Below, in pieces: positions 2,810-34,825 of a stretch of DNA of 38,681 bases. Position numbers and translations under genes: made by a program. The first letter of the stretch is position 1. The number at the start of each line of letters is the position of its first letter. Origin of the DNA: Candidatus Methanofrustulum fimipullorum (GTDB lineage: Archaea > Halobacteriota > Methanosarcinia > Methanosarcinales > Methanosarcinaceae); the NCBI GenBank assembly GCA_012518265.1, contig JAAYST010000069.1, positions 1 through 38,681 of the forward strand, given 5' to 3'. Below the pieces are notes generated by a model that searched no databases, was not told where the DNA came from, and was given only the letters and a program-made list of their open reading frames with translations.

Positions 2810-2844
2810 TGTTATAATTATTAAAATTGAAAAGGAAAAACAGC

Positions 2845-5800
2845 ATGGCGGATATAAAAAAGGAACTTGAGGCCCTTCGTGAAAAATTGCTTGATCTTTC
2901 TCTAAATAACAATCTTTTAAATTATTCCGTTTCAAAGAAACGTACAATCGAAATATTAAATGATTCGGTATCGGATATTTACAATACGCTTGTTGTCGAT
3001 AATAAAAGTATGCGGTTTAGATCTGCGGACTTTGAAGATAAAAAAGACAATTACATTTATACAAAATACGAACAAGACGAAATTGAAGATGTTTTGTTTT
3101 ATGTAAGAAATCAGGCACAAACCGTTTTTGAAGAACAGGGCTACCCCACATTGTTTATGGCGATAGGATTTTTGGAATGGAACGATTTTTCCGGCTCTAA
3201 AAGAGACCTCTCATCGCCTTTAATACTTGTTCCGATACGGCTTAACAGAACGGGAATGAGAAGAATTTATTCTGTTGAATGGACAGGAAACGAGTTGTCC
3301 GTATCGATCACTTTGAAAGCGAAAATGGCCGAGATGGGAATAGAAATTCCGGAATTTGAAAATCAGGAAAACAAAAAAGGAATTGAAGAGTATTTCAAAA
3401 GTGTTGAAGAAAATATAAAACAAAACACTAAATGTTCTGACTGGAAAGTAAAAAGAACGGCTTGTATTGACTTTTTTAATTTTAAAAAATTTGTAATGTA
3501 TAAAGATTTGGATCCGAATATTTGGCCGGAAGGTGAAGGGCCGGAAACGCACCCGCTTATAAAAAAGTTGTTGGATCCGGATCAAACGGAAGATGACGGA
3601 TTTTTAGAAAGCGATGTAGATAAAAAATTAACTTCCGCCGATGTGTATCATATCGTTGATGCCGATTCGTCTCAAATTGCAGTAATCGAAGACGTAAAAG
3701 CGGGAAGGAATTTGGTCGTTGAAGGGCCACCGGGAACAGGAAAATCGCAGACGATTACAAATTTAATTGCGGAACTCTTGGGCCAAAATAAAAGTGTTTT
3801 GTTCGTTTCTGAAAAAATGGCGGCTTTGCAAGTTGTAAAGCAAAGGCTGGATACGGTGGGGCTTGGGAGTTTGTGTCTTGAAATACACAGTAATAAAGCG
3901 CAAAAAAAAGAGCTCTTAAACGAACTTGAAAAAACGCTTAATGCGCCGAAGCCGCCTGAGAAAAATTTCAAACACGTATTTGACGAGTTAGAAAACATAA
4001 AGTATGAATTAAATGAATATGCCCGTTCTCTTAGAGAAAAAATCGGCCCGTCAAATCAGTCCGTATATGAAATTTATGGAATGAGAGAAAATATTGCAAG
4101 GTATTTTAAACACAACGGAAGAGTTATGCAAACCGTTACGATTGAAAATCCGGAAAAGTGGACCGTTGACGATTTGACGAATTCAAAAGCGTGCCTTGAG
4201 AGAATGGCGGGCGCTTACGAAATTTTAAAGACGATAAAAAATAATCCGTGGAACGGATGTGAGCCGGGAATAATTCTTCCGCCCGACATTATAAAAATAA
4301 GAGAAAAAATGTCGGCTCTTGAATTTGAAAGAGAAAATCTGTTTAAATCTTTTGGAAATATTGTCAAACAAACGGGACTTTCTATGCCGGAAAGTGTAGC
4401 GGATACAAAAAGCATGCTTGTACGAGCACTTTATTTGTCAAGTTTTCCGAAAATTGAATCTGCAGTTTTAAATAATAAAGATTGGATTAAACAAACGAAG
4501 ATTCCAAATGCGCTTATTGAAAAGTCGAAAAAATATGTCGGTTTGAAAGAGTATATAAACAGCACATTTTCACAAAATATTGAAAAAGCAGATTTGGATA
4601 CTTTCCTAAAAAAATCGTCTAAGTTTACAAGAATTTTTGATTCCGAATTTAAAAATATAAAAGAAGAAATTGAAAGCTGTTACATCATAAAAAAGAAAAG
4701 AAAAAATTCAGAGATAAAATCCGATGTGAAGCTGTATATTGAACATGTTGAGCTGAAAAATGAAATTGAAAATGAAAACAAAAACGGAATTTACTTTTTC
4801 GGATCTGATTGGGACAATATAAAATATGAACCGGAAGAGCTTCAAAGAATTGCAGAGTGCATAAAGTCGTTTAACGAAATAAACGCTAAAAGCAAAAAAA
4901 GCGGAAATTATGAATTCTCCGATATCGTTGTTTTGAAAATCGAGCACGGAATCGATAGAGAAAAGGTAGTTGACGCTGTTGAAGATCTAGAAATCCGCAT
5001 GCGAAATTTGGAACAAAATCTGTCCGGACTTTCTGAAAAACTCGGAATTCCCAAAAATTTGATTTTCGAAGAAGATATGACGATTCGAAAAGATGTAAAA
5101 TATGACGATTTGTCGAATAAAATTAAGGGTTGGAACGAGTCGCTTGAAGAGCTCGTTTTATGGAGCAGATACAGAGCCGACAGGGCCGAGTGTTTGAAAA
5201 GCGTTGCAAAGCCTTTCGTTGAAATCATAGACAACGACCTTGTTTTGCCGGAAGATATTATTCCGACTTTTAAAGGAAATTATGCAGATTCGATGTTAAG
5301 ATATGCGTTTAGGGAAGAAAGAAGTCTTTCAACGTTTATTTGTGAAGTTCATGAAAATAAAATAAAGAAATTTATAGAATACGATAAAGATATTTTGAGT
5401 AAAAATCGTGAGCGTTTGAGAATACAAGGGTATGAGAATTTACCGAAAATGACAACGGGAGTCATTAGAGATTCTGAAAAAGGAATTTTATTAAACGAGT
5501 TTAATAAAAAACGCGGACATATGCCTATAAGAAAATTGATGCTAAACGCCGGCGGTTTAATTCAAAAAATAAAACCTTGTTTTATGATGAGTCCATTGTC
5601 GATTGCTCAATATTTGGACCCGAAAACGTCAAGGTTTGATGTAATTATATTCGACGAAGCAAGTCAAGTAAGACCGGAAGATGCGTTGGGCGCACTTCTT
5701 AGAGGAAAACAGGTCGTGGTTATGGGCGACTCAAAACAACTTCCACCGACTACGTTTTTTGAAAATATGTTTGCAAACGACGAGTATATCGAAGATGATA

Positions 5801-8334
5801 TTTATACCGACATGGAAAGCGTATTAAATATGTGTAAAAGAAGTTTTCCTCACAAAACTCTTCTTTGGCACTACAGAAGTCGTCACGAGTCTTTAATTGA
5901 AGTTTCGAATCGAGAATTTTATTCTGACAGATTATATGTTTATCCGTCTCCATACCATGACGATTTGAACATGGGACTTCATCTAAATTACAATCCCGAT
6001 ACGATTTACGACAGAGGAAAAACGGGTGTAAACCGTGAAGAAGCAAGAATCGTTGCACATGAAGTCGTAAGACATTTCATACGTTTCCCGGAAAAAACAT
6101 TGGGTGTCGGAACTTTTAATACAAAACAACAGCAAGCAATCCAATATGAAATTGAAAAGCTGATTCGTGAAAGTCCCGGTTTTGAGAAGTATTTAGTTAA
6201 CGACAAAGGCGAAAACTTTTTTGTAAAAAACATTGAAACGATACAGGGTGACGAAAGAGATGTCATTTTCATAAGCATCGGTTTCGGATTTGACCAAAAC
6301 GGAAAAATGTCGAATAATTTCGGTCCGATAAACAAAGAAGGCGGAGAAAGGCGTCTTAACGTTTTATTTACGCGAGCAAGAGAGAAATGTGTAATCTTTT
6401 CAAATTTCAGAGCAATTGACATGTCAATTAATGAAACGTCGCCTGCCGGCCTCGTTATTTTATCAAAGTTTTTAAGACATGCGGAATTTAGAACGAACAA
6501 TTTAGATGCAATTACAGACGGAACTTCATTTCCAAAAGATTCGTTTGAAAATGCCGTTTTGGAATTTTTAAAAGAAAACGGACATATAATTCATACAAAG
6601 ATAGGGTGTGCCGGTTATCGAATCGACATGGCGCTTGAAAGCAAAAAAAATCCGGGATACTTTTATTTGGGCGTTGAATGTGACGGCCCGCAGTATCATT
6701 CGTCTGAAGTTGCAAGAGACAGAGACAGACTCAGAAAGCAAGTTTTGGAAGGTTTGGGCTGGAACTTATACCGTGTTTGGTCGACCGAGTGGTATATGAG
6801 TCCTGAAAAATGTAAAAGAGATTTGCTCAAAGCAATTGAAGAAGCAAAAGAAAAAGCCAAAAACATAAAAATCGAAAACGAAAAAATAAACGATAAAGAC
6901 AAATATAAAAAAGGAAAAGACCAAAAAACAACGGAAACCGAAGCAGACGAAACCGAAGCCGTTGAAAAAATGAAAAAGATATTGGAAGCGGCCGACCTGT
7001 CCAAAGAAAAAATTATGGGAAAAAGAGAAAAAGAACTGAAAGTTATTGAACAAAAAGAAGAAAAGGAAAAAGAAGCGGAAAGAAAAGAAGAAGAAAAAAG
7101 AGAAATGGAAGAACTCGAAAAAGAATTAAAATATAGAGATATAAAAATAAGAGAAGAAAAAGAACAAAAAGAAAGGGAACAAAGAGAAAGAGAACAAAAA
7201 GAAAGGGAACAAAAAGAAAGGGAACAAAAAGAAAGAGAACAAAAAGAAAGGGAACAAAGAGAAAGAGAACAAAAAGAAAGGGAACAAAGGGAAAGAGAGC
7301 AAAAAGAAAGGGAACTAAGAGAAAGAGAACAAAAAGAAAGGGAACTAATAGAAAGAGAACAGAAAGAAAGAGAGCAAAGGGAAATAGAACAAAAAGAAAG
7401 GGAACTAAGAGAAAGAGAACAAAAAGAAAGAGAGCAAAGAGAAAGAGAACAGAAAGAAAGAGAGCAAAGGGAAAGAGAACTAAGAGAAAGAGAGCAAAAA
7501 GAAAGAGAAAAGGAACAAAGGGAAATAGAACAAAAGGAAAATGAGAAAAAGGAAAGAAAGCAAAAGATTCAAAGAGAAAATGACTTTGACTCAAGAAGTG
7601 AAGAAACGAGTCGAGGACATGAAAATCTTATTGAATTCGAACGAGATTTAGATCTTAATCATGAATTTGAGTATGAGTATAATGGAACGGACGAACAAGG
7701 TTCCGGCGATGGTGGAGACTATCAATATAGAAGAGTTCACGGAATTCCGACTTATGACGATCTTATGAATATCGATTCGATGCTTGAAAACGGAGTTCCC
7801 GATTATGAAAAGTATGAAGATTTGAAATTGCCTTCGACCGAAAATTTATCGGAAGTTCCGAGACACACACTTGAGCATGAAATTGTAGATTTGGTTAAAT
7901 TTGAAGGACCCGTTCACAAAGAAAGAGTTATAAAAGCGATAAAAGACAAATGCGATATTAAACGAATGACCAAAGATACAAGAGAAATGATAATTCGGGA
8001 AATTTCGATGGCGGAAATGTCAGGTTATATTTACATTCGCGGAAACATAATTTGGCCGCCGTACAAAAAACAAATAATTGCAAGAAAAAGAGAAGGCGAT
8101 TTATTAAATATCGACCATATTTCCGAACAAGAAATTTTCCAAATGGCAATTTACGTTTTAACAACCCAATTTTCAATGCCGAAAGACAGTTTATTAAAAC
8201 AAATATCAGTTGAATTCGGGTTTAAAGTATTAAGAGAAAACATAAGAAACAGAATTGAAAATGTAGTCGACAGAGCAATCGAAAACAAATATATCGTAAT
8301 TTTGCCGAACGGAAAATTGTATTTGGAAGAATAA
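2845..8334 (+). CDS. DUF4011-type SF1 helicase fused to a Vsr/MTES_1575-like nuclease and a DUF3320 domain
   Basis: A very large protein (1829 residues). The N-terminus matches the DUF4011 start of these helicases (LREKLLDLSLNNNLLNY). The SF1 (Upf1-like, COG1112-type) helicase has Walker A GPPGTGKS at 294-301, Walker B FDEASQ at 936-941, GDSKQLPP at 961-968, then HYRSRH, a TIQGDERD motif and LNVLFTRAREK. A PD-(D/E)xK nuclease of the MTES_1575/Vsr type follows, with Glu1235, Asp1261 and the E-C-D at 1278-1280. Residues 1440-1554 are 23 exact five-residue repeats E-(Q/L)-(K/R)-E-R. The tail (about 1673-1735, HEIVDLVKFEGPVHKERV) matches DUF3320. The reading frame is open from a TTG at 2827, but AAAGGA at 2831-2836 lies 8 bases before ATG 2845, so I use that ATG. 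Probable nucleic-acid processing enzyme; similar architectures occur in anti-mobile-element defence, but no partner gene is present here. Confidence 0.88.
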   Translation: MADIKKELEALREKLLDLSLNNNLLNYSVSKKRTIEILNDSVSDIYNTLVVDNKSMRFRSADFEDKKDNYIYTKYEQDEIEDVLFYVRNQAQTVFEEQGYPTLFMAIGFLEWNDFSGSKRDLSSPLILVPIRLNRTGMRRIYSVEWTGNELSVSITLKAKMAEMGIEIPEFENQENKKGIEEYFKSVEENIKQNTKCSDWKVKRTACIDFFNFKKFVMYKDLDPNIWPEGEGPETHPLIKKLLDPDQTEDDGFLESDVDKKLTSADVYHIVDADSSQIAVIEDVKAGRNLVVEGPPGTGKSQTITNLIAELLGQNKSVLFVSEKMAALQVVKQRLDTVGLGSLCLEIHSNKAQKKELLNELEKTLNAPKPPEKNFKHVFDELENIKYELNEYARSLREKIGPSNQSVYEIYGMRENIARYFKHNGRVMQTVTIENPEKWTVDDLTNSKACLERMAGAYEILKTIKNNPWNGCEPGIILPPDIIKIREKMSALEFERENLFKSFGNIVKQTGLSMPESVADTKSMLVRALYLSSFPKIESAVLNNKDWIKQTKIPNALIEKSKKYVGLKEYINSTFSQNIEKADLDTFLKKSSKFTRIFDSEFKNIKEEIESCYIIKKKRKNSEIKSDVKLYIEHVELKNEIENENKNGIYFFGSDWDNIKYEPEELQRIAECIKSFNEINAKSKKSGNYEFSDIVVLKIEHGIDREKVVDAVEDLEIRMRNLEQNLSGLSEKLGIPKNLIFEEDMTIRKDVKYDDLSNKIKGWNESLEELVLWSRYRADRAECLKSVAKPFVEIIDNDLVLPEDIIPTFKGNYADSMLRYAFREERSLSTFICEVHENKIKKFIEYDKDILSKNRERLRIQGYENLPKMTTGVIRDSEKGILLNEFNKKRGHMPIRKLMLNAGGLIQKIKPCFMMSPLSIAQYLDPKTSRFDVIIFDEASQVRPEDALGALLRGKQVVVMGDSKQLPPTTFFENMFANDEYIEDDIYTDMESVLNMCKRSFPHKTLLWHYRSRHESLIEVSNREFYSDRLYVYPSPYHDDLNMGLHLNYNPDTIYDRGKTGVNREEARIVAHEVVRHFIRFPEKTLGVGTFNTKQQQAIQYEIEKLIRESPGFEKYLVNDKGENFFVKNIETIQGDERDVIFISIGFGFDQNGKMSNNFGPINKEGGERRLNVLFTRAREKCVIFSNFRAIDMSINETSPAGLVILSKFLRHAEFRTNNLDAITDGTSFPKDSFENAVLEFLKENGHIIHTKIGCAGYRIDMALESKKNPGYFYLGVECDGPQYHSSEVARDRDRLRKQVLEGLGWNLYRVWSTEWYMSPEKCKRDLLKAIEEAKEKAKNIKIENEKINDKDKYKKGKDQKTTETEADETEAVEKMKKILEAADLSKEKIMGKREKELKVIEQKEEKEKEAERKEEEKREMEELEKELKYRDIKIREEKEQKEREQREREQKEREQKEREQKEREQKEREQREREQKEREQREREQKERELREREQKERELIEREQKEREQREIEQKERELREREQKEREQREREQKEREQRERELREREQKEREKEQREIEQKENEKKERKQKIQRENDFDSRSEETSRGHENLIEFERDLDLNHEFEYEYNGTDEQGSGDGGDYQYRRVHGIPTYDDLMNIDSMLENGVPDYEKYEDLKLPSTENLSEVPRHTLEHEIVDLVKFEGPVHKERVIKAIKDKCDIKRMTKDTREMIIREISMAEMSGYIYIRGNIIWPPYKKQIIARKREGDLLNIDHISEQEIFQMAIYVLTTQFSMPKDSLLKQISVEFGFKVLRENIRNRIENVVDRAIENKYIVILPNGKLYLEE
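7162..7506 (+). repeat. 15-base minisatellite, 23 uninterrupted units, encoding an E-Q-K-E-R helix
   Basis: Twenty-three consecutive 15-base units follow the pattern GAACAAAAAGAAAGG/A, with codon-level variants such as CTA for CAA and AGA or AGG for AAA. All keep the frame and encode E-Q/L-K/R-E-R. The flanks (about 7020-7161 and 7507-7570) are also Glu/Lys/Arg-rich. A period of five is not a coiled-coil heptad; the pattern resembles ER/K single alpha-helices. The tract links the nuclease domain to DUF3320. Confidence 0.92.
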
Positions 8335-8381
8335 CTAATATAAAAACTTTGCCTTTTTAAAAAAATAAAAACGTATAAATA

Positions 8382-8391
8382 GGGGGGGGGG
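8382..8391 (+). repeat. G10 homopolymer, intergenic
   Basis: Ten consecutive G lie between the helicase stop (8334) and the ATG at 8495, in otherwise AT-rich DNA. The tract is about 104 bases upstream of the small membrane-anchored protein. It is one of only two such G runs in the window; the other is at 10441. It lies in no convincing coding frame, so if its length varies it would change promoter or leader spacing. The surrounding 160-base gap otherwise holds AT-rich sequence with stops in all frames. Confidence 0.85.
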
Positions 8392-8494: not shown

Positions 8495-8911
8495 ATGAAA
8501 CAAAAGAAAAAAGCAATAATTTTGTTAGCTGTTGTAGCTTTACTATTTTTATTTCTCGTTTCCCCGTATGTTTTGCAAATAATATTTACAGGAAGTCCTG
8601 TAAAAGATTCTGTCAAAATAAAAAACTATGACAGCGAAACTCATAGTGTGTCAATTGAAATGTTTGATTTAAACGATAAATTGGTATTTAAAGAAAATTA
8701 TACGCTTAAACCGAACGAATCCGTTTCAAAAGAGAAAAGTTTTTTTGAAAAGTATACTCTGAAAACAAAAAAATACAATATGAAGGTTGTATTGGATGAC
8801 AAAATTATAGAAAGAAACCCGGTTTACATGGGATGGACCGACAATGCAATCGTAGATATATATTGGAAACAAGATATACCGATAAGAATCAATACAGTTA
8901 CATACAATTAA
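8495..8911 (+). CDS. Small membrane-anchored extracytoplasmic protein, unknown family
   Basis: A 138-residue protein with a basic start (MKQKKK) and one hydrophobic helix at about residues 7-30, then a hydrophilic domain of about 105 residues outside the membrane. That domain alternates short hydrophobic and polar stretches (for example VSIEMFDLNDKLVFKENYTL) as expected of a beta-sandwich. No Cys for lipidation and no catalytic motif is visible. AAGGA at 8481-8485 lies 9 bases before the ATG. A G10 tract sits about 104 bases upstream. T-rich runs after the stop (about 8938-8960) may end transcription, converging with the membrane-protein gene on the other strand. I do not recognise the family. 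Confidence 0.7.
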   Translation: MKQKKKAIILLAVVALLFLFLVSPYVLQIIFTGSPVKDSVKIKNYDSETHSVSIEMFDLNDKLVFKENYTLKPNESVSKEKSFFEKYTLKTKKYNMKVVLDDKIIERNPVYMGWTDNAIVDIYWKQDIPIRINTVTYN

Positions 8912-8986: not shown

Positions 8987-10417
8987 TCATAAATTTTCAA
9001 CCTCAGTCTTTGCTTTTTTGCAAACCGAAATACTTTTTATATATTTCAATAAAAGGTATATTCCGTAAATAAAAGTTAAAACAAATCCAAGGATTATTAA
9101 AAAAATCATTGCGGAGTCTGCAATTGTTCCGATAAAAACCGTGAAATCCCGGCCCGTATCCATATCATATTTAAAATTGAAATGGTTAAATGATTTATTG
9201 AAATTTGATGCAAATTGATAAATTGGAGAAATAAACGTAAGCAATATTAATAAAAATACGGTCAAAATAATTCCGCCCGACTTTCTTCCAGTATAATTCA
9301 TTGCAAAAAGACCGACACAAAACAGGTACAAAAGGAACGGGAAAATAAATGCTCCGTATTTAAACATTTTTTCGGATTTTGTTGTTAAGAAATAAATAAG
9401 ATAAAAAACACAACTTAAAATTAAAATTATCGACAATATTTTGTAATACGTTTTTTCATTATTTGATAAGCCCGGTTTTAAAATAAGGTAAGAAAATATT
9501 CCAAAAATTGAAAAATAAAATAAAGGGAATAAAATAACAATTAAATAAAACATCTCATTTTTGCCTAAACTAAGTGTGTTTAATATTTCAGAAAATGATG
9601 GGTTCCCGACCAAATAGCTTGCAAGTAGGAAAAATAATAAAAAGAATAACGGAAACAAAACAAAATAAAGAGAGAGTAAAAGATTTGTTCGGCCGTTTTT
9701 ATAGGTATATATTGATTCTTTTTGTCCATTTTTACCATCTTCTTTTTCAACATTTTCCAAGTAAACGCTTTCTGACTCAACAAATATAGAAACCGCATCT
9801 TTTGCTGACGATTTAATTGAATTTCCATAAATTACTAATTTAAGACCTTCGATAAAAAATATAATTCCAAAGAAAACAAAAAACAAAAATAAAAAGGGAT
9901 AAAATAAAATTCCGAAAACAGGTATAAATAAAAAAGGAACTAAAAGCGTTTGAGAAAATAATTCTGAAAACAAACCTAACTGTTTCGAAAGAATTGCAAT
10001 TAATAAAAACAAAAAGCAAAAGCCAAATATTAATAAAAAGGCTTTAGGAACTAATGATATTTTTTTATAAGCCTTTATAATTTGTTTTGGAAAAACAAAT
10101 AACGACGGATTTGCAAAAAACAATATAAAAGTTATAGTGCTTAATACCAAATAGAAATCAAATTGGAATAAATTGTCTGAAAATTCAAAAACGCCGGGTT
10201 TTATAATAGACAAAACAATAAGAGCGGTCGAAATAAATAAAAGAATGAATTTAAAAGAGGCTTTTTTAAAATTATTTCCATGTTGAGATTTTTCAAACTT
10301 TTGAGAATTTTCAGATTGCTCGGATTTTTTTAATTGTTCGGAAGTTTTAGAAAAATCATATCCCTTTTTAAAAAACAAAAAAGATACAAATAAAGCACCC
10401 AGACACGGCAATATCAA
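8987..10417 (-). CDS. Polytopic membrane protein, main part of a frameshifted gene
   Basis: A 476-residue reading frame with about ten hydrophobic segments, a short charged loop near residues 22-50 (Ser/Glu/Lys/Gln-rich) and no recognised motif. It has no ATG: the first usable codon is TTG at 10417, with no ribosome-binding site. The frame is open further upstream through the C10 tract (minus strand of 10441-10450), where the upstream frame starting at 10610 stops instead. With nine C instead of ten the two join into one protein of 540 residues with another membrane helix at the front. I therefore regard this as the downstream part of a single gene that is out of frame in this sequence. Function unknown; possible transporter or sensor. 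Confidence 0.7.
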   Translation of the reverse strand: MILPCLGALFVSFLFFKKGYDFSKTSEQLKKSEQSENSQKFEKSQHGNNFKKASFKFILLFISTALIVLSIIKPGVFEFSDNLFQFDFYLVLSTITFILFFANPSLFVFPKQIIKAYKKISLVPKAFLLIFGFCFLFLLIAILSKQLGLFSELFSQTLLVPFLFIPVFGILFYPFLFLFFVFFGIIFFIEGLKLVIYGNSIKSSAKDAVSIFVESESVYLENVEKEDGKNGQKESIYTYKNGRTNLLLSLYFVLFPLFFLLFFLLASYLVGNPSFSEILNTLSLGKNEMFYLIVILFPLFYFSIFGIFSYLILKPGLSNNEKTYYKILSIILILSCVFYLIYFLTTKSEKMFKYGAFIFPFLLYLFCVGLFAMNYTGRKSGGIILTVFLLILLTFISPIYQFASNFNKSFNHFNFKYDMDTGRDFTVFIGTIADSAMIFLIILGFVLTFIYGIYLLLKYIKSISVCKKAKTEVENL

Positions 10418-10424
10418 AATAAAC

Positions 10425-10610
10425 TCAAAAATTAAAGTTTGGGGGGGGGGAAGGAACGATAAAATAAAAAACTTGATTTAAACTCCAAAATATATAAAAA
10501 AAGAAAGAAATAGAAATGAAAATTAGAGATAGTCCGATTCCTCTTATTTCCAAATCAGAAAATTTCAAATTTGAAAAATCCAAATCTGAAAAATCATTTT
10601 TTTGATGCAT
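10425..10610 (-). CDS. N-terminal part of the frameshifted membrane protein
   Basis: A 61-residue frame starting at ATG 10610, with GGAG 10 bases before it. It has a short polar head repeating D-F/L-S-D/N-L, a membrane helix (GIGLSLIFISISFFFYIFWS), then a Pro run made by the C10 tract and an early TGA stop. Removing one C continues the frame as PPQTLIFEFILILPCLGALF straight into the 476-residue frame downstream. Read as it stands it would be a one-helix peptide. It carries the start signals the downstream frame lacks, so it is most likely the true beginning of that gene. Confidence 0.6.
   Translation of the reverse strand: MHQKNDFSDLDFSNLKFSDLEIRGIGLSLIFISISFFFYIFWSLNQVFYFIVPSPPPNFNF
10441..10450 (-). 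repeat. C10 homopolymer at the frameshift point of the membrane protein
   Basis: Ten G on the plus strand (C10 in the coding sense) at the exact place where the frame starting at 10610 breaks. Nine C restore a 541-codon gene. Such tracts are classical slipped-strand contingency sites and also classical sequencing-error sites; the sequence alone cannot separate the two. Confidence 0.9.
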
Positions 10611-10660: not shown

Positions 10661-10690
10661 ATGTTGTATAATGTTGTATAATGTTGTATA
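10661..10690 (-). repeat. Three tandem 10-base repeats upstream of the membrane-protein gene
   Basis: Three perfect copies of ATGTTGTATA (plus strand) lie 51-80 bases upstream of the ATG at 10610. The period is close to one helical turn, so the copies present the same DNA face. They fall in the promoter region of the minus-strand gene and could be repeated regulator or TATA-like sites. A similar three-copy 10-base repeat stands before the dihydrouridine synthase gene (37641-37670). Confidence 0.75.
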
Positions 10691-10779
10691 AAAGAGTTCT
10701 GTTTTCTGTTATATGAAAGAGTTTGTTTTAAAAACCTTTATTACTTTTATCACCGGTTTTTAAAATATCCCTATTTACA

Positions 10780-30400: not shown

Positions 30401-30775
30401 TCAAACGGATTTGAGATAAATAATTACATCTACGATATCGACTTTTCCGTCACCGTCAAGGTCTGCTCCTTTGGCAACCATTTCTTCGTTTGAAAGATTA
30501 CCGAAAACACCAACCTTTGATGTATATTGCAAAAGAACGATAACATCTCTTATACTCGCCGGTTTATCGTCTTCGATGAGTTTCGGCAATGCTTTGTATT
30601 GTGCTCTAAGAGTAAAATTCTTATTGACGACAAAAACATTACCAACCGGTTTTCCGTTAGAAGTCCAACATTCAAATAAGTAGCCGCGTTTGTACGAGTG
30701 ATCAAAATTTTCAGGAATTCTAAACACGTTTCCGCTTTCAACGGAATACCTGTCCAATTCTTTGTTGCCGTTCAT
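30401..30775 (-). CDS. InlB-like repeat plus dockerin tail, C-terminal part of a frameshifted surface protein
   Basis: The frame from ATG 30775 gives 124 residues, but it is open upstream through the Pro-Thr/Ser linker to about 30935. It holds an InlB/Flg_new-like repeat (KRGYLFECWTSNGKPVG...LRAQYKAL) and a dockerin pair: a degenerate first half (IEDDKPASIRDVIVLLQY) and a canonical second loop DLDGDGKVDIVDVIIYLKSV. The tail closely resembles that of the peptidase at 11946. It has no signal peptide of its own. Joined to the frame upstream by restoring one base, it makes a 475-residue secreted protein. As it stands, the dockerin is uncoupled from the exported domain. Confidence 0.75.
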   Translation of the reverse strand: MNGNKELDRYSVESGNVFRIPENFDHSYKRGYLFECWTSNGKPVGNVFVVNKNFTLRAQYKALPKLIEDDKPASIRDVIVLLQYTSKVGVFGNLSNEEMVAKGADLDGDGKVDIVDVIIYLKSV

Positions 30776-30837
30776 GAATTTTACTGCAAATTTAACCGGA
30801 ACTACAGGTTCTGAAGGTTCTGTTGGAATTGTGGGAA

Positions 30838-31827
30838 TTACAGGGTCAACAGGACCTGTAGGAATTGGAGTTGGAGTGGGGGTTGGAGACGGGGAAGGAG
30901 TTGGGGTTGGAGTAGGAGTTGGAGACGGGGAAGGTGTGGGGTTGGAGACGGGGAAGGAGTTGGGGTGGGAGTTGGAGATGAAGAATCAAAGTATACATAT
31001 ACAACTTTTGGGTGATCCCAGTCGCCGGATATCGTTATATAGCCTTCCGGAATGGAGGGCATAAATTTAATTGCTTGTTGATATGCGCCTCCGCTGAGAT
31101 CGATGTCAAGTTTTCCTGTTCCTCGAAGATAAAGATTGTCAACGCCGTTTACGATTCGGTCGTAAGGGGATTTGCATTTCACGAAAATCTTTGCTTCCGA
31201 TGTGTCCATCATTGTCAAATTCCCTATACCGCATGCGGATTTGGTTGATGTTTCGGAGCCATATACATTGGAAATGAGTTTTGCATCGTTTTTCAATGTA
31301 AGATGGTCTGCACCGCATGCTTTACCGGAATAAATGTTGTTTACGTTTATTTTCAATGTAATGTCGCTTACGTGAACATTGTTGGACAAGGCTTTAAACC
31401 ATTTTGTTGTCAGATTTAATTCCGTCCCGGGATTTCCGCTTATGTTAACATTTTTAAAAAAAAGCAAGTCTTTGGAAACAATAAAACAATTTATGCAACT
31501 TGACCTGCCTAGACTAATACTGCTGTTACTTTTTACAAAAATGTCGAGATCGTCAGGTTTGCTGCTTATACTTTGTATGGGTCCGCTGTTGTAACCGTCA
31601 AGTATAAGTCTTTTGTTGACGCGGTCATATGACATGCCGTCGGGAAATACGGTTGAAGAATCTGTTAAATCAAAGACTTCCCATTCTCCTCCTCGAATAT
31701 ATACTCTAATACTTTCTGCTTTAGCCGCTTGCGCTTTGCCCATGGCGAAGCCGGACAAAAAAACGCCAAGCAAAAGCATTAGAACAAGGGAAAAGAATAA
31801 TGCTCTTTTTATATCGAATTTTGCCAT
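30838..31827 (-). CDS. Secreted beta-helix-like protein, N-terminal part of a frameshifted dockerin protein
   Basis: The signal peptide covers about residues 1-35 (FFSLVLMLLLGVFLSGFAMG). Residues about 38-280 form short repeated strands rich in Asn, Gly, Ser and Leu (DLDIFVKSNSSISLG, DHLTLKNDAKLIS, LYLRGTGKLDIDLSG), as in parallel beta-helix carbohydrate-active or adhesive domains. Then comes a linker SSSPTPTPTPSPSPTP. Near 30935 the frame slips: the last 32 residues (HLPRLQLLLQ...) are the linker read out of frame. The correct frame continues as Pro-Thr/Ser and leads into the dockerin fragment at 30401-30775. GGTGA precedes the ATG. The gene is flanked by two tandem arrays. Function inferred as surface binding; no enzyme motif seen. 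Confidence 0.75.
   Translation of the reverse strand: MAKFDIKRALFFSLVLMLLLGVFLSGFAMGKAQAAKAESIRVYIRGGEWEVFDLTDSSTVFPDGMSYDRVNKRLILDGYNSGPIQSISSKPDDLDIFVKSNSSISLGRSSCINCFIVSKDLLFFKNVNISGNPGTELNLTTKWFKALSNNVHVSDITLKINVNNIYSGKACGADHLTLKNDAKLISNVYGSETSTKSACGIGNLTMMDTSEAKIFVKCKSPYDRIVNGVDNLYLRGTGKLDIDLSGGAYQQAIKFMPSIPEGYITISGDWDHPKVVYVYFDSSSPTPTPTPSPSPTPHLPRLQLLLQPQLLPRLQPPLQLQFLQVLLTL
30868..30980 (-). repeat. Pro-Thr/Ser linker minisatellite containing the frameshift
   Basis: The plus-strand sequence repeats GGAGACGGGGAAGGAGTTGG-type units of about 23, 30 and 36 bases. The middle copy (about 30931-30945) reads GGTGTGGGG where its neighbours read GGAGTTGGGG, one base shorter. That missing base splits the gene. 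In frame the repeat encodes P-T-P-T-P-S-P-S. Confidence 0.85.
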
Positions 31828-32016: not shown

Positions 32017-32598
32017 GGCAGCTTTTGAGTTCTTGGTGTCAATGGTACGACCTGGCAGCTTTTGAATTCTTAAGTCAAAGATACGACCCCGCAGCTTTTG
32101 AGTTCTTAGTGTCAAAGGTACGACCTGGAAGCTTTTGAGTTCTTAAGTCAATGATACGACCCGGCAGCTTTTGAGTTCTTAAGTCAATGATACGACCTGG
32201 CAACTTTTGAATTCTTAGTGTCAATGATACGACCCGGCAGCCTTTGAATTCTTAGTGTCAAAGGTACGACCCGGCAGCCTTTGAATTCTTAGTGACAATG
32301 ATACGACCCGGCAGCTTTTGAATTCTTAAGTCAAAGGTACGACCTGGAAGCTTTTGAATTCTTAAGTCAAAGGTACGACCTGGAAGCTTTTGAATTCTTA
32401 AGTCAAAGGTACGACCCGGCAGCCTTTGAATTCTTAGTGTCAATGATACGACCCGGCAGCCTTTGAATTCTTAGTGTCAATGGTACGACCTGGCAGCTTT
32501 TGAATTCTTAAGTCAATGATACGACCCCGCAGCTTTTGAATTCTTAAGTCAATGATACGACCTGGCTTCCTTTGAATTCTTAAGTCAATGATACGCCG
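32017..32598. repeat. Sixteen-unit 36/37-base direct tandem array
   Basis: Units begin at 32017, 32054, 32090, 32127, 32163, 32199, 32236, 32273, 32310, 32346, 32382, 32418, 32455, 32492, 32528 and 32564. Each runs GGCAGCTTTTGAATTC, then TTAAGTCAA (36-base units) or TTAGTGTCAA (37-base units), then TGATACGACC or AGGTACGACC. No unique spacer separates them. The core TTGAATTCTTAAGTCAA has imperfect dyad symmetry (TTGAnTT-nnn-AAnTCAA), as in protein-binding sites. The array lies between atwA and the dockerin gene and ends in a hairpin at 32588. The sequence from 31828 to 32016 is AT-rich and otherwise empty. Confidence 0.95.
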
Positions 32599-33058: not shown

Positions 33059-34825
33059 TCACAAATCAAAATCATTTAACAAATAAACGGCTTTACTTTT
33101 TTGGATTAATTTGTCACAGACTTCTGTCGGGTCCCCGTCCATTACGAGATTTCCTCTGTCAATTAAAAGTGCTCTGTGAGCCACTTCTTTTACAAAGTTC
33201 ATGTGGTGACTTACAAGAACAATCGTTGTATTGAATACTTTGTTTATTTTTTTAAGGGCGTTTGTAACGTCTCTAAGCGTTATCGGGTCCAAGTCTCCGA
33301 AAGGTTCGTCCAAAAATAAATATTTGGGAGAAGTTGCAAGGCTTAAAGCAATAAATGCGCGAACGTGTTCTCCGCCGCTTATTTCTGTCGGTTTTCGGTC
33401 AAGAATGTCCAAAGGCAAATTCAATGCGTTAAAAACGGGAACGGCATAACTGTCTACGTCTTCGAAAGGAATCGACGGGAAAAGTTCATTAAAGATTTCA
33501 TCAGGAATACCAAGTTCGTTCATAACTTGGTCTTTTTCTGCCGTTGCCATATCGGGAAGTCTGTATATAATATCTAAAGCTTCCGAGGAAATTCCTAAGC
33601 TTTCAGCTTTGGCTTTGGCGTTGTCGACTGCTTCTTTTCGTTTCATACTGATCCTAAAACGAATCTGGTCACGAACTGTAGAGTTGACCGACATCGAAAA
33701 TTCCTGATTCATAATACTTATAATACTTCTTAAATAGATTCTTCGTTCGTTGTAATCAGATATGTTTATCCATTCGCCTTCTTCTTTTTCTCCTTTTTCT
33801 TCTTTGCCTTCTCCTTTTTCTTCTTTTCCTTTTTCAAGGTAAAGATAAACAACACGACCTTCGGTCGGCGCAATCAAACCTTCCATCATTTTCATGATAG
33901 TAGTTTTTCCGGCGCCTGAGCTTCCGATTAGAGAAACGATTTGCCCGTCGTACACATCAAAACTCATGTTTTCGATATTCAAAACTTCGCCGACCCGAAT
34001 CAAAGCATATCTTTTTGATATGTTTTCTACTCGAACTGTTTCTTTTAAAACGGGAATTTCGGAAAGCGGCTCTTTTGGTGCAATGTCTTTTAAGAAAAGA
34101 GTAAGAACTTCGTCAGGACTTCCGTCTTTTACGATTTTTCCGTCTTCCAAAAACAGAACCCTATCAGCAATATATTTGTGGATTTCAGGGAGGTGAGATA
34201 CAACAATTATCGGAATATTCAATTCGTCTTTTAAGCGTTTTATAACGTCTAAAACTTCCTGTTTAGTGTCAGGACCGGTCATTGTTACAGGCTCGTCTAA
34301 AAGCAAAACTTTAGGATGTGCGGCAATTTGCCGAGCTAAAACAAGTCTCTGTTTTTCGCCGCCGCTTAACTGGTCGGTTGAATGGAGCGCTTTTTCTTCA
34401 AGCCCTACCATCTTTAAAATTTCCATTGCTTCCTTGTAAAGACCTTCGTAGGAGTGATGCGTTTTCAAAGGCAACGCTTCAACTCCCGCATTTTTGAAAT
34501 TAAGCCTTCGGATAATATTTTCAATCGCAGGACCGCCCCATAGACCGAAATTTCTTTGCAAATGAATTGCAGTCATACTTTTTAGAGTTCTGCCCTCGCT
34601 TTCCCAATTCTCAGGAGTTACAATCTCATCGCAAATTTCAATCGAACCGCTGTCAAACGGAACAACACCTCTTAAAATTTTAAGAAGTGTAGATTTCCCG
34701 GAACCGCTTTTCCCGGTGATGCCAACGATTTCGGGCTTTGTTATTTCAAAGCTGACGCCGTCCAAAACTTTATTTTTATAATTTTCGCTTCGGTACTCTT
34801 TAACTATATTTGAAACCTTTAACAT
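33059..34825 (-). CDS. atwA: Methyl-coenzyme M reductase activation component A2, double ABC ATPase
   Basis: A 588-residue soluble protein with two ABC ATPase cassettes and no membrane helix. Cassette 1 has Walker A GKSGSGKS (38-45), signature LSGGE (153-157) and Walker B LLLDEP with Asp177. Cassette 2 has Walker A GSSGAGKT (301-308), signature SGGEH (483-487) and FLDEP with Asp506. The GLWGGPAIENIIRRL segment after cassette-1 Walker A is typical of component A2, which drives ATP-dependent reductive activation of methyl-coenzyme M reductase in methanogens. A Lys/Glu/Gly-rich loop (about 327-349) interrupts cassette 2. ATG 34825 is preferred over ATG 34834 because AAGGA lies 8 bases before it. 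It is the best single sign that the host is a methanogen. Confidence 0.87.
   Translation of the reverse strand: MLKVSNIVKEYRSENYKNKVLDGVSFEITKPEIVGITGKSGSGKSTLLKILRGVVPFDSGSIEICDEIVTPENWESEGRTLKSMTAIHLQRNFGLWGGPAIENIIRRLNFKNAGVEALPLKTHHSYEGLYKEAMEILKMVGLEEKALHSTDQLSGGEKQRLVLARQIAAHPKVLLLDEPVTMTGPDTKQEVLDVIKRLKDELNIPIIVVSHLPEIHKYIADRVLFLEDGKIVKDGSPDEVLTLFLKDIAPKEPLSEIPVLKETVRVENISKRYALIRVGEVLNIENMSFDVYDGQIVSLIGSSGAGKTTIMKMMEGLIAPTEGRVVYLYLEKGKEEKGEGKEEKGEKEEGEWINISDYNERRIYLRSIISIMNQEFSMSVNSTVRDQIRFRISMKRKEAVDNAKAKAESLGISSEALDIIYRLPDMATAEKDQVMNELGIPDEIFNELFPSIPFEDVDSYAVPVFNALNLPLDILDRKPTEISGGEHVRAFIALSLATSPKYLFLDEPFGDLDPITLRDVTNALKKINKVFNTTIVLVSHHMNFVKEVAHRALLIDRGNLVMDGDPTEVCDKLIQKSKAVYLLNDFDL

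Follow-up and report, generated by a model that had tools for sequence, protein, structure and literature searches.

In host-associated bacteria, switching driven by slippage is a classic form of bet-hedging; the closest known counterparts of the locus described here include the poly-C/poly-G contingency genes of Helicobacter pylori and Campylobacter. The phase-variation system of the archaeal virus phiCh1 depends on a recombinase that inverts DNA, and not on slippage. This virus system is cited in PMC8371274, and a variable G-repeat in the leader of H. pylori tlpB is described in PMC8295292. Programmed frameshifting on poly-A occurs in a magnesium-chelatase gene cluster, which includes Methanococcus and Methanocaldococcus (PMC3711429). 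A survey of 99 prokaryotes, 18 of them archaea, found an excess of poly-A/T tracts and a general deficit of poly-C/G runs (PMC2831843). In a 2025 review, mapping slippage-driven switching across the archaea was still a task for the future (PMC11868660). A search of the open literature found nothing published on phase variation by slippage in methanogens, which is weak evidence as most subscription journals lay outside the scope of the search. The mechanism itself is of a known kind that is hardly reported in archaea.

The locus lies in a 38,681-nucleotide stretch of DNA, hereafter the window, from Candidatus Methanofrustulum fimipullorum, and consists of a membrane-protein gene split at a run of ten C, with a run of ten G close by. 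It resembles the contingency genes of H. pylori and Campylobacter in having a long C/G run near the 5’-end of a gene for a membrane protein, a G+C-poor genome, similar run lengths and a frame that is broken by one base more or less. It differs from them in its archaeal host, in the one or two tracts per genome against dozens, in the presumptive nature of its switching, and in that the searches found no orthologue of it. The G10 tract is like the tlpB repeat (PMC8295292) in being a non-coding G run that precedes the start codon of an envelope-type gene, and unlike it in following an archaeal TATA box. With phiCh1 (PMC8371274) the locus would share its setting in archaea and the reversible variation of proteins related to the surface, the candidate mechanism here being slippage rather than inversion. 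The magnesium-chelatase cluster likewise has a homopolymer at the frame break and methanogen members, but its runs are of A, are conserved across genera and act on expression without a change in the DNA (PMC3711429). The two adjacent tracts thus offer a concrete place to ask whether archaea use the slippage device towards hosts or viruses.

The SecY encoded in the window is 82% identical to that of a Methanosarcinaceae genome from water-buffalo rumen and 79% to that of Methanimicrococcus blatticola, the nearest named relatives. These identities indicate a relative of gut methanogens and bear out the preliminary description, which had taken the organism for a methanogen. The source assembly is a draft, fragmented into 108 contigs and with a completeness of 81%, and the G+C content around the split gene is about 26%.

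The split gene comprises the following features.

10425 to 10610, minus strand: upstream frame of 61 codons, with ATG at 10610, a GGAG Shine-Dalgarno sequence, one predicted membrane helix and a TGA at 10425 after the C10 tract
10441 to 10450, minus strand: C10 tract at the junction of both frames, which nine C join and ten or eleven C do not
8987 to 10477, minus strand: long frame, open back through the C10 tract, with no ATG before residue 353 of the joined protein

The preliminary description had an ATG frame with a ribosome-binding site that crosses one helix, enters the C10 run and stops, and a long frame that is open back through the same run; both frames were found as described. The two overlap by 53 nt, the only stretch of the gene where loss of one base fuses them, and the C10 tract lies inside this overlap. 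Read in silico with nine C, the codons TCC CCC CCC CAA ACT lead into a joined product of 540 residues, in agreement with the fusion proposed earlier. With ten C the reading is TCC CCC CCC CCA AAC TTT AAT TTT TGA and yields 61 aa, and with eleven C it is TCC CCC CCC CCC AAA CTT TAA, an early stop, so that in these readings a change of one unit in the tract switches between the full-length and the truncated product. The long frame is free of stops across about 480 codons. An ATG with a Shine-Dalgarno sequence is found only in the short upstream frame. The earlier statement that the long frame has no start of its own holds for ATG codons and needs amendment for others, since a TTG at 10417 opens a 476-aa ORF, for which a convincing Shine-Dalgarno sequence is absent.

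Codon usage, scored as log-likelihoods trained on the other genes of the window, speaks for the ATG frame ahead of the tract and for the long frame beyond it. Before the C10 the ATG frame scores +8.1 and the other frames +1.8 and -6.2; after it the long frame scores +76 and the others about -28, the first 100 nt past the tract being indecisive. A perfect 10-bp tandem repeat (ATGTTGTATA, 3.1 copies) at 10661-10691 abuts the probable TATA-like box of the split gene on its upstream side and is possibly variable too.

A hydropathy scan of the joined protein gave 13 segments of 19 residues, that is about 13 predicted membrane helices. The C10 tract encodes an uncharged loop between helices 1 and 2, and the loop after that is rich in K/R, as expected for the intracellular side. 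The predicted helix and charge pattern fits a single protein. A single-sequence fold, predicted without relatives, was all-helical with low confidence (pLDDT 49.5). The joined protein matched no known family in Pfam, NCBIfam, PHROGs or PADLOC, and searches of GTDB-220 contigs, IMG/VR, 186 genomes of the order and 394 genomes of the phylum returned nothing beyond weak hydrophobic matches. The long part likewise had no credible relative in these libraries and genome sets, nor did viral contigs contain the same junction with another tract length.

The whole assembly (1,513,574 bases) contains only two C/G runs of at least eight bases. Both are exactly ten long and both fall in the window, 2.06 kb apart. 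Runs of seven bases number six in the assembly and runs of eight or nine are absent; in the window the longest C or G run, the two G10 of the forward strand aside, is of five. Markov models of order 1-4 derived from the window predict 0.002-0.24 C/G runs of at least ten in 1.51 Mb, depending on the order, against the two found, and the chance that two randomly placed tracts fall within 2.06 kb of each other is about 0.003, a post hoc figure. The two tracts are clearly not background. Longer than chance would give, one in a reading frame and one at a probable promoter, they have the character of the repeat tracts of contingency loci. A/T runs of similar length are common, and no flanking sequence is common to the two tracts.

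The surroundings of the second tract are as follows.

2827 to 8334, plus strand: anti-phage type helicase-nuclease gene (DUF4011, AAA, MTES_1575), as context
8374 to 8381, plus strand: TATAAATA box, probable promoter of the 138-aa gene, as judged from octamer over-representation and position
8382 to 8391, plus strand: G10 tract, candidate promoter-type repeat, directly after the TATA box
8495 to 8911, plus strand: convergent neighbour gene for a membrane-anchored 138-aa protein, predicted to consist of an N-terminal helix and a beta sandwich, from a family that is widespread in the order

The TATAAATA octamer occurs 10 times in the window against 3.05 expected. The G10 tract is about 100 nt upstream of the 138-aa gene, which points towards the membrane-protein gene. 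In archaea the transcript begins some 25 nt beyond the TATA box, and the tract would accordingly occupy the spacer that precedes the start site. A search of 60 relatives, at the permissive E threshold of 0.1, gave matches to the 138-aa protein in 27. Its fold, predicted with nine homologues (pLDDT 79), is an N-terminal helix followed by a beta sandwich, and comparison with solved structures gave generic matches only (PepT2 extracellular domain, transthyretin). None of the nine homologous genes has a C/G run of at least six within 200 nt upstream, and the G10 is therefore a local feature.

The product of the helicase-nuclease gene scores against PADLOC PDC-S37, and against NCBIfam ProA and Hhe below the curated cut-off. 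On the other side, a radical-SAM gene has 47-48% identity to another family of the order versus 32-36% to its own family, so that the block around the split gene may be accessory DNA.

Long C/G tracts were surveyed by scanning 112 genomes of the family for C9 and C11, and some 55 of the tracts were read. No clear second split gene was found among them; the tracts were located at insertion-sequence-like ends, in in-frame coding sequence of G+C-richer genomes, at contig ends or in intergenic DNA. A methanogen-wide poly-C contingency system was accordingly set aside, and the case is confined to one locus. Most of the longest tracts come from one genus (g5), in which a repeated C(n)A(n) motif stands beside an ORF of 350-390 codons. 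In loci L069-L078 and L080 the motif reads C(n)A(n), or G(n) after T(n), where n ranges from 11 to 16; the adjoining ORF has about 350-390 codons, and each genome contains several copies of the motif that differ in tract length. It is probably an insertion-sequence end whose tract length varies between copies. The tracts of the window were considered as ends of the same kind and rejected, for their flanks differ and no transposase-like ORF of about 380-390 codons is adjacent. A few intergenic tracts of the family are near TATA-like boxes (L118, L086, L121). In L118 (G046:C76), from another genus, a C10 at 3007-3016 of the locus follows a TATAAAAT box and precedes the start codon (ATG) of a lipoprotein-like gene, a suggestive case of what is possibly a second promoter-type tract in the family. 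In the genome studied here, a lipoprotein-like gene has a G7 (L228, G000:C91, 2699-2705) shortly before its probable ATG, where the run may serve as a ribosome-binding site.

The explanation given the best chance, just above even, is that the split gene is a slipped-strand (simple-sequence-repeat) contingency locus caught in the OFF state. The C10 tract would gain or lose a C by replication slippage; with nine C (or six, or twelve) the ATG frame would continue into the 540-residue polytopic membrane protein (ON), and with ten or eleven, the former being the state of the assembly, a peptide of about 60 residues would result (OFF). The G10, placed after the TATA box and ahead of the expected start site, would through the same process alter transcription of the convergent gene. 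This reading is economical, as it accounts for where the tract lies and how long it is, for the otherwise clean long frame and for the twin tract, and it is strengthened by the genome-wide rarity of such tracts and by the second one at the neighbour’s promoter. The phase-variable locus proposed in the preliminary description is thus upheld in its anatomy, with the reversible change of length, and its effect on expression, as the presumptive part. Against it speak the homologues of the 138-aa gene, which do not have the tract, and the family genomes, in which no clear split-gene tract was seen; a second frame break in the window, also in a repeat, counts against it as well. A wider reading, held only tentatively and rather doubtful as a whole, makes the locus a two-gene, two-tract module beside the anti-phage helicase gene, in which the C10 switches translation of the membrane protein and the G10 the promoter of the convergent gene. 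The two genes might then have a joint function, conceivably with a surface or phage-related role. If this is true, a methanogenic archaeon would possess a module for phase variation by slippage.

Three other explanations each account for part of the data, and none of them for the twin tract. In the first, which appears unlikely, the consensus or assembly is miscounted, so that the true tract is C9, the gene is intact and the OFF state is an artefact, the tract being slippage-prone all the same. The fragmented state of the draft, the known fall of consensus errors in homopolymers and the other frame break in the window agree with this. However, the frames of the ribosomal-protein genes (about 12 kb) and of other long conserved genes of the window are intact, and with A/T runs of similar length so common a gross indel error is unlikely; a miscount also leaves the neighbouring position of the only two ten-base C/G runs unexplained.

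A fixed frameshift is somewhat less probable again. Here an accessory gene would have been inactivated recently at a chance or expanded tract and would be decaying, with no switching back, as might suit a gene for which no relatives were found, in DNA of low G+C content next to a radical-SAM gene that looks foreign, as in accessory DNA. Against such decay, no further lesion has accumulated across the long frame, the break sits at the most reversible site possible and the second tract has no explanation.

Programmed recoding is a distinctly improbable alternative, according to which RNA polymerase or ribosomes slip on the C10 in a fixed fraction of events, so that some full-length protein is always made from unchanged DNA. 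Homopolymers of eight or more do favour slippage, and the idea is to be taken seriously because poly-A frameshifting has been measured for the gene cluster that includes methanogens, but the documented cases are mainly A/T runs (PMC3711429). Moreover, the promoter-side G10 has no role in recoding, and the homologue search found no gene in which a slippery site could be conserved. Two separate overlapping genes, a 61-aa peptide and a 476-aa protein begun at the TTG of 10417, are very improbable, since that codon is present but has no good ribosome-binding site, the next ATG is about 290 codons on and the overlap falls on sequence of the rarest type in the genome.

Loss of mismatch repair was considered as a cause of tract instability and rejected, both MutS and MutL being present. 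MutS (G000 contig C99, L102) is encoded in one open frame and contains an insertion of about 43 Ser/Thr/Pro residues, placed after the Walker B region and ahead of the ATPase motif conserved next in line (FATHYHQ), that is absent from the same-genus relative. This insertion is odd, is no proof of a defect, and could bear on mismatch repair and repeat stability. With both proteins present, slippage need not be frequent, a point that counts against the contingency reading.

Other repeats were observed in the window. Low-complexity charged inserts, namely REQKEREQ repeats in the helicase (7154-7509) and KEEKGE repeats in an ABC ATPase (33773-33835), suggest that coding DNA of this genome commonly undergoes expansion of repeats. 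The second frame break is in a secreted protein gene (30401-31827, minus strand), inside a Pro/Thr repeat at 30860-30977 with a 36-bp period; the frame shifts by one base within the repeat and a dockerin-like end is in the other frame. Because the 36-bp unit is a multiple of three, slippage of whole units would not switch this gene, and a sequencing error or decay is as likely an explanation of its frame break as switching. Last, positions 32017-32595 contain an intergenic array of 36-bp repeats, about 16 copies that are 88% alike.
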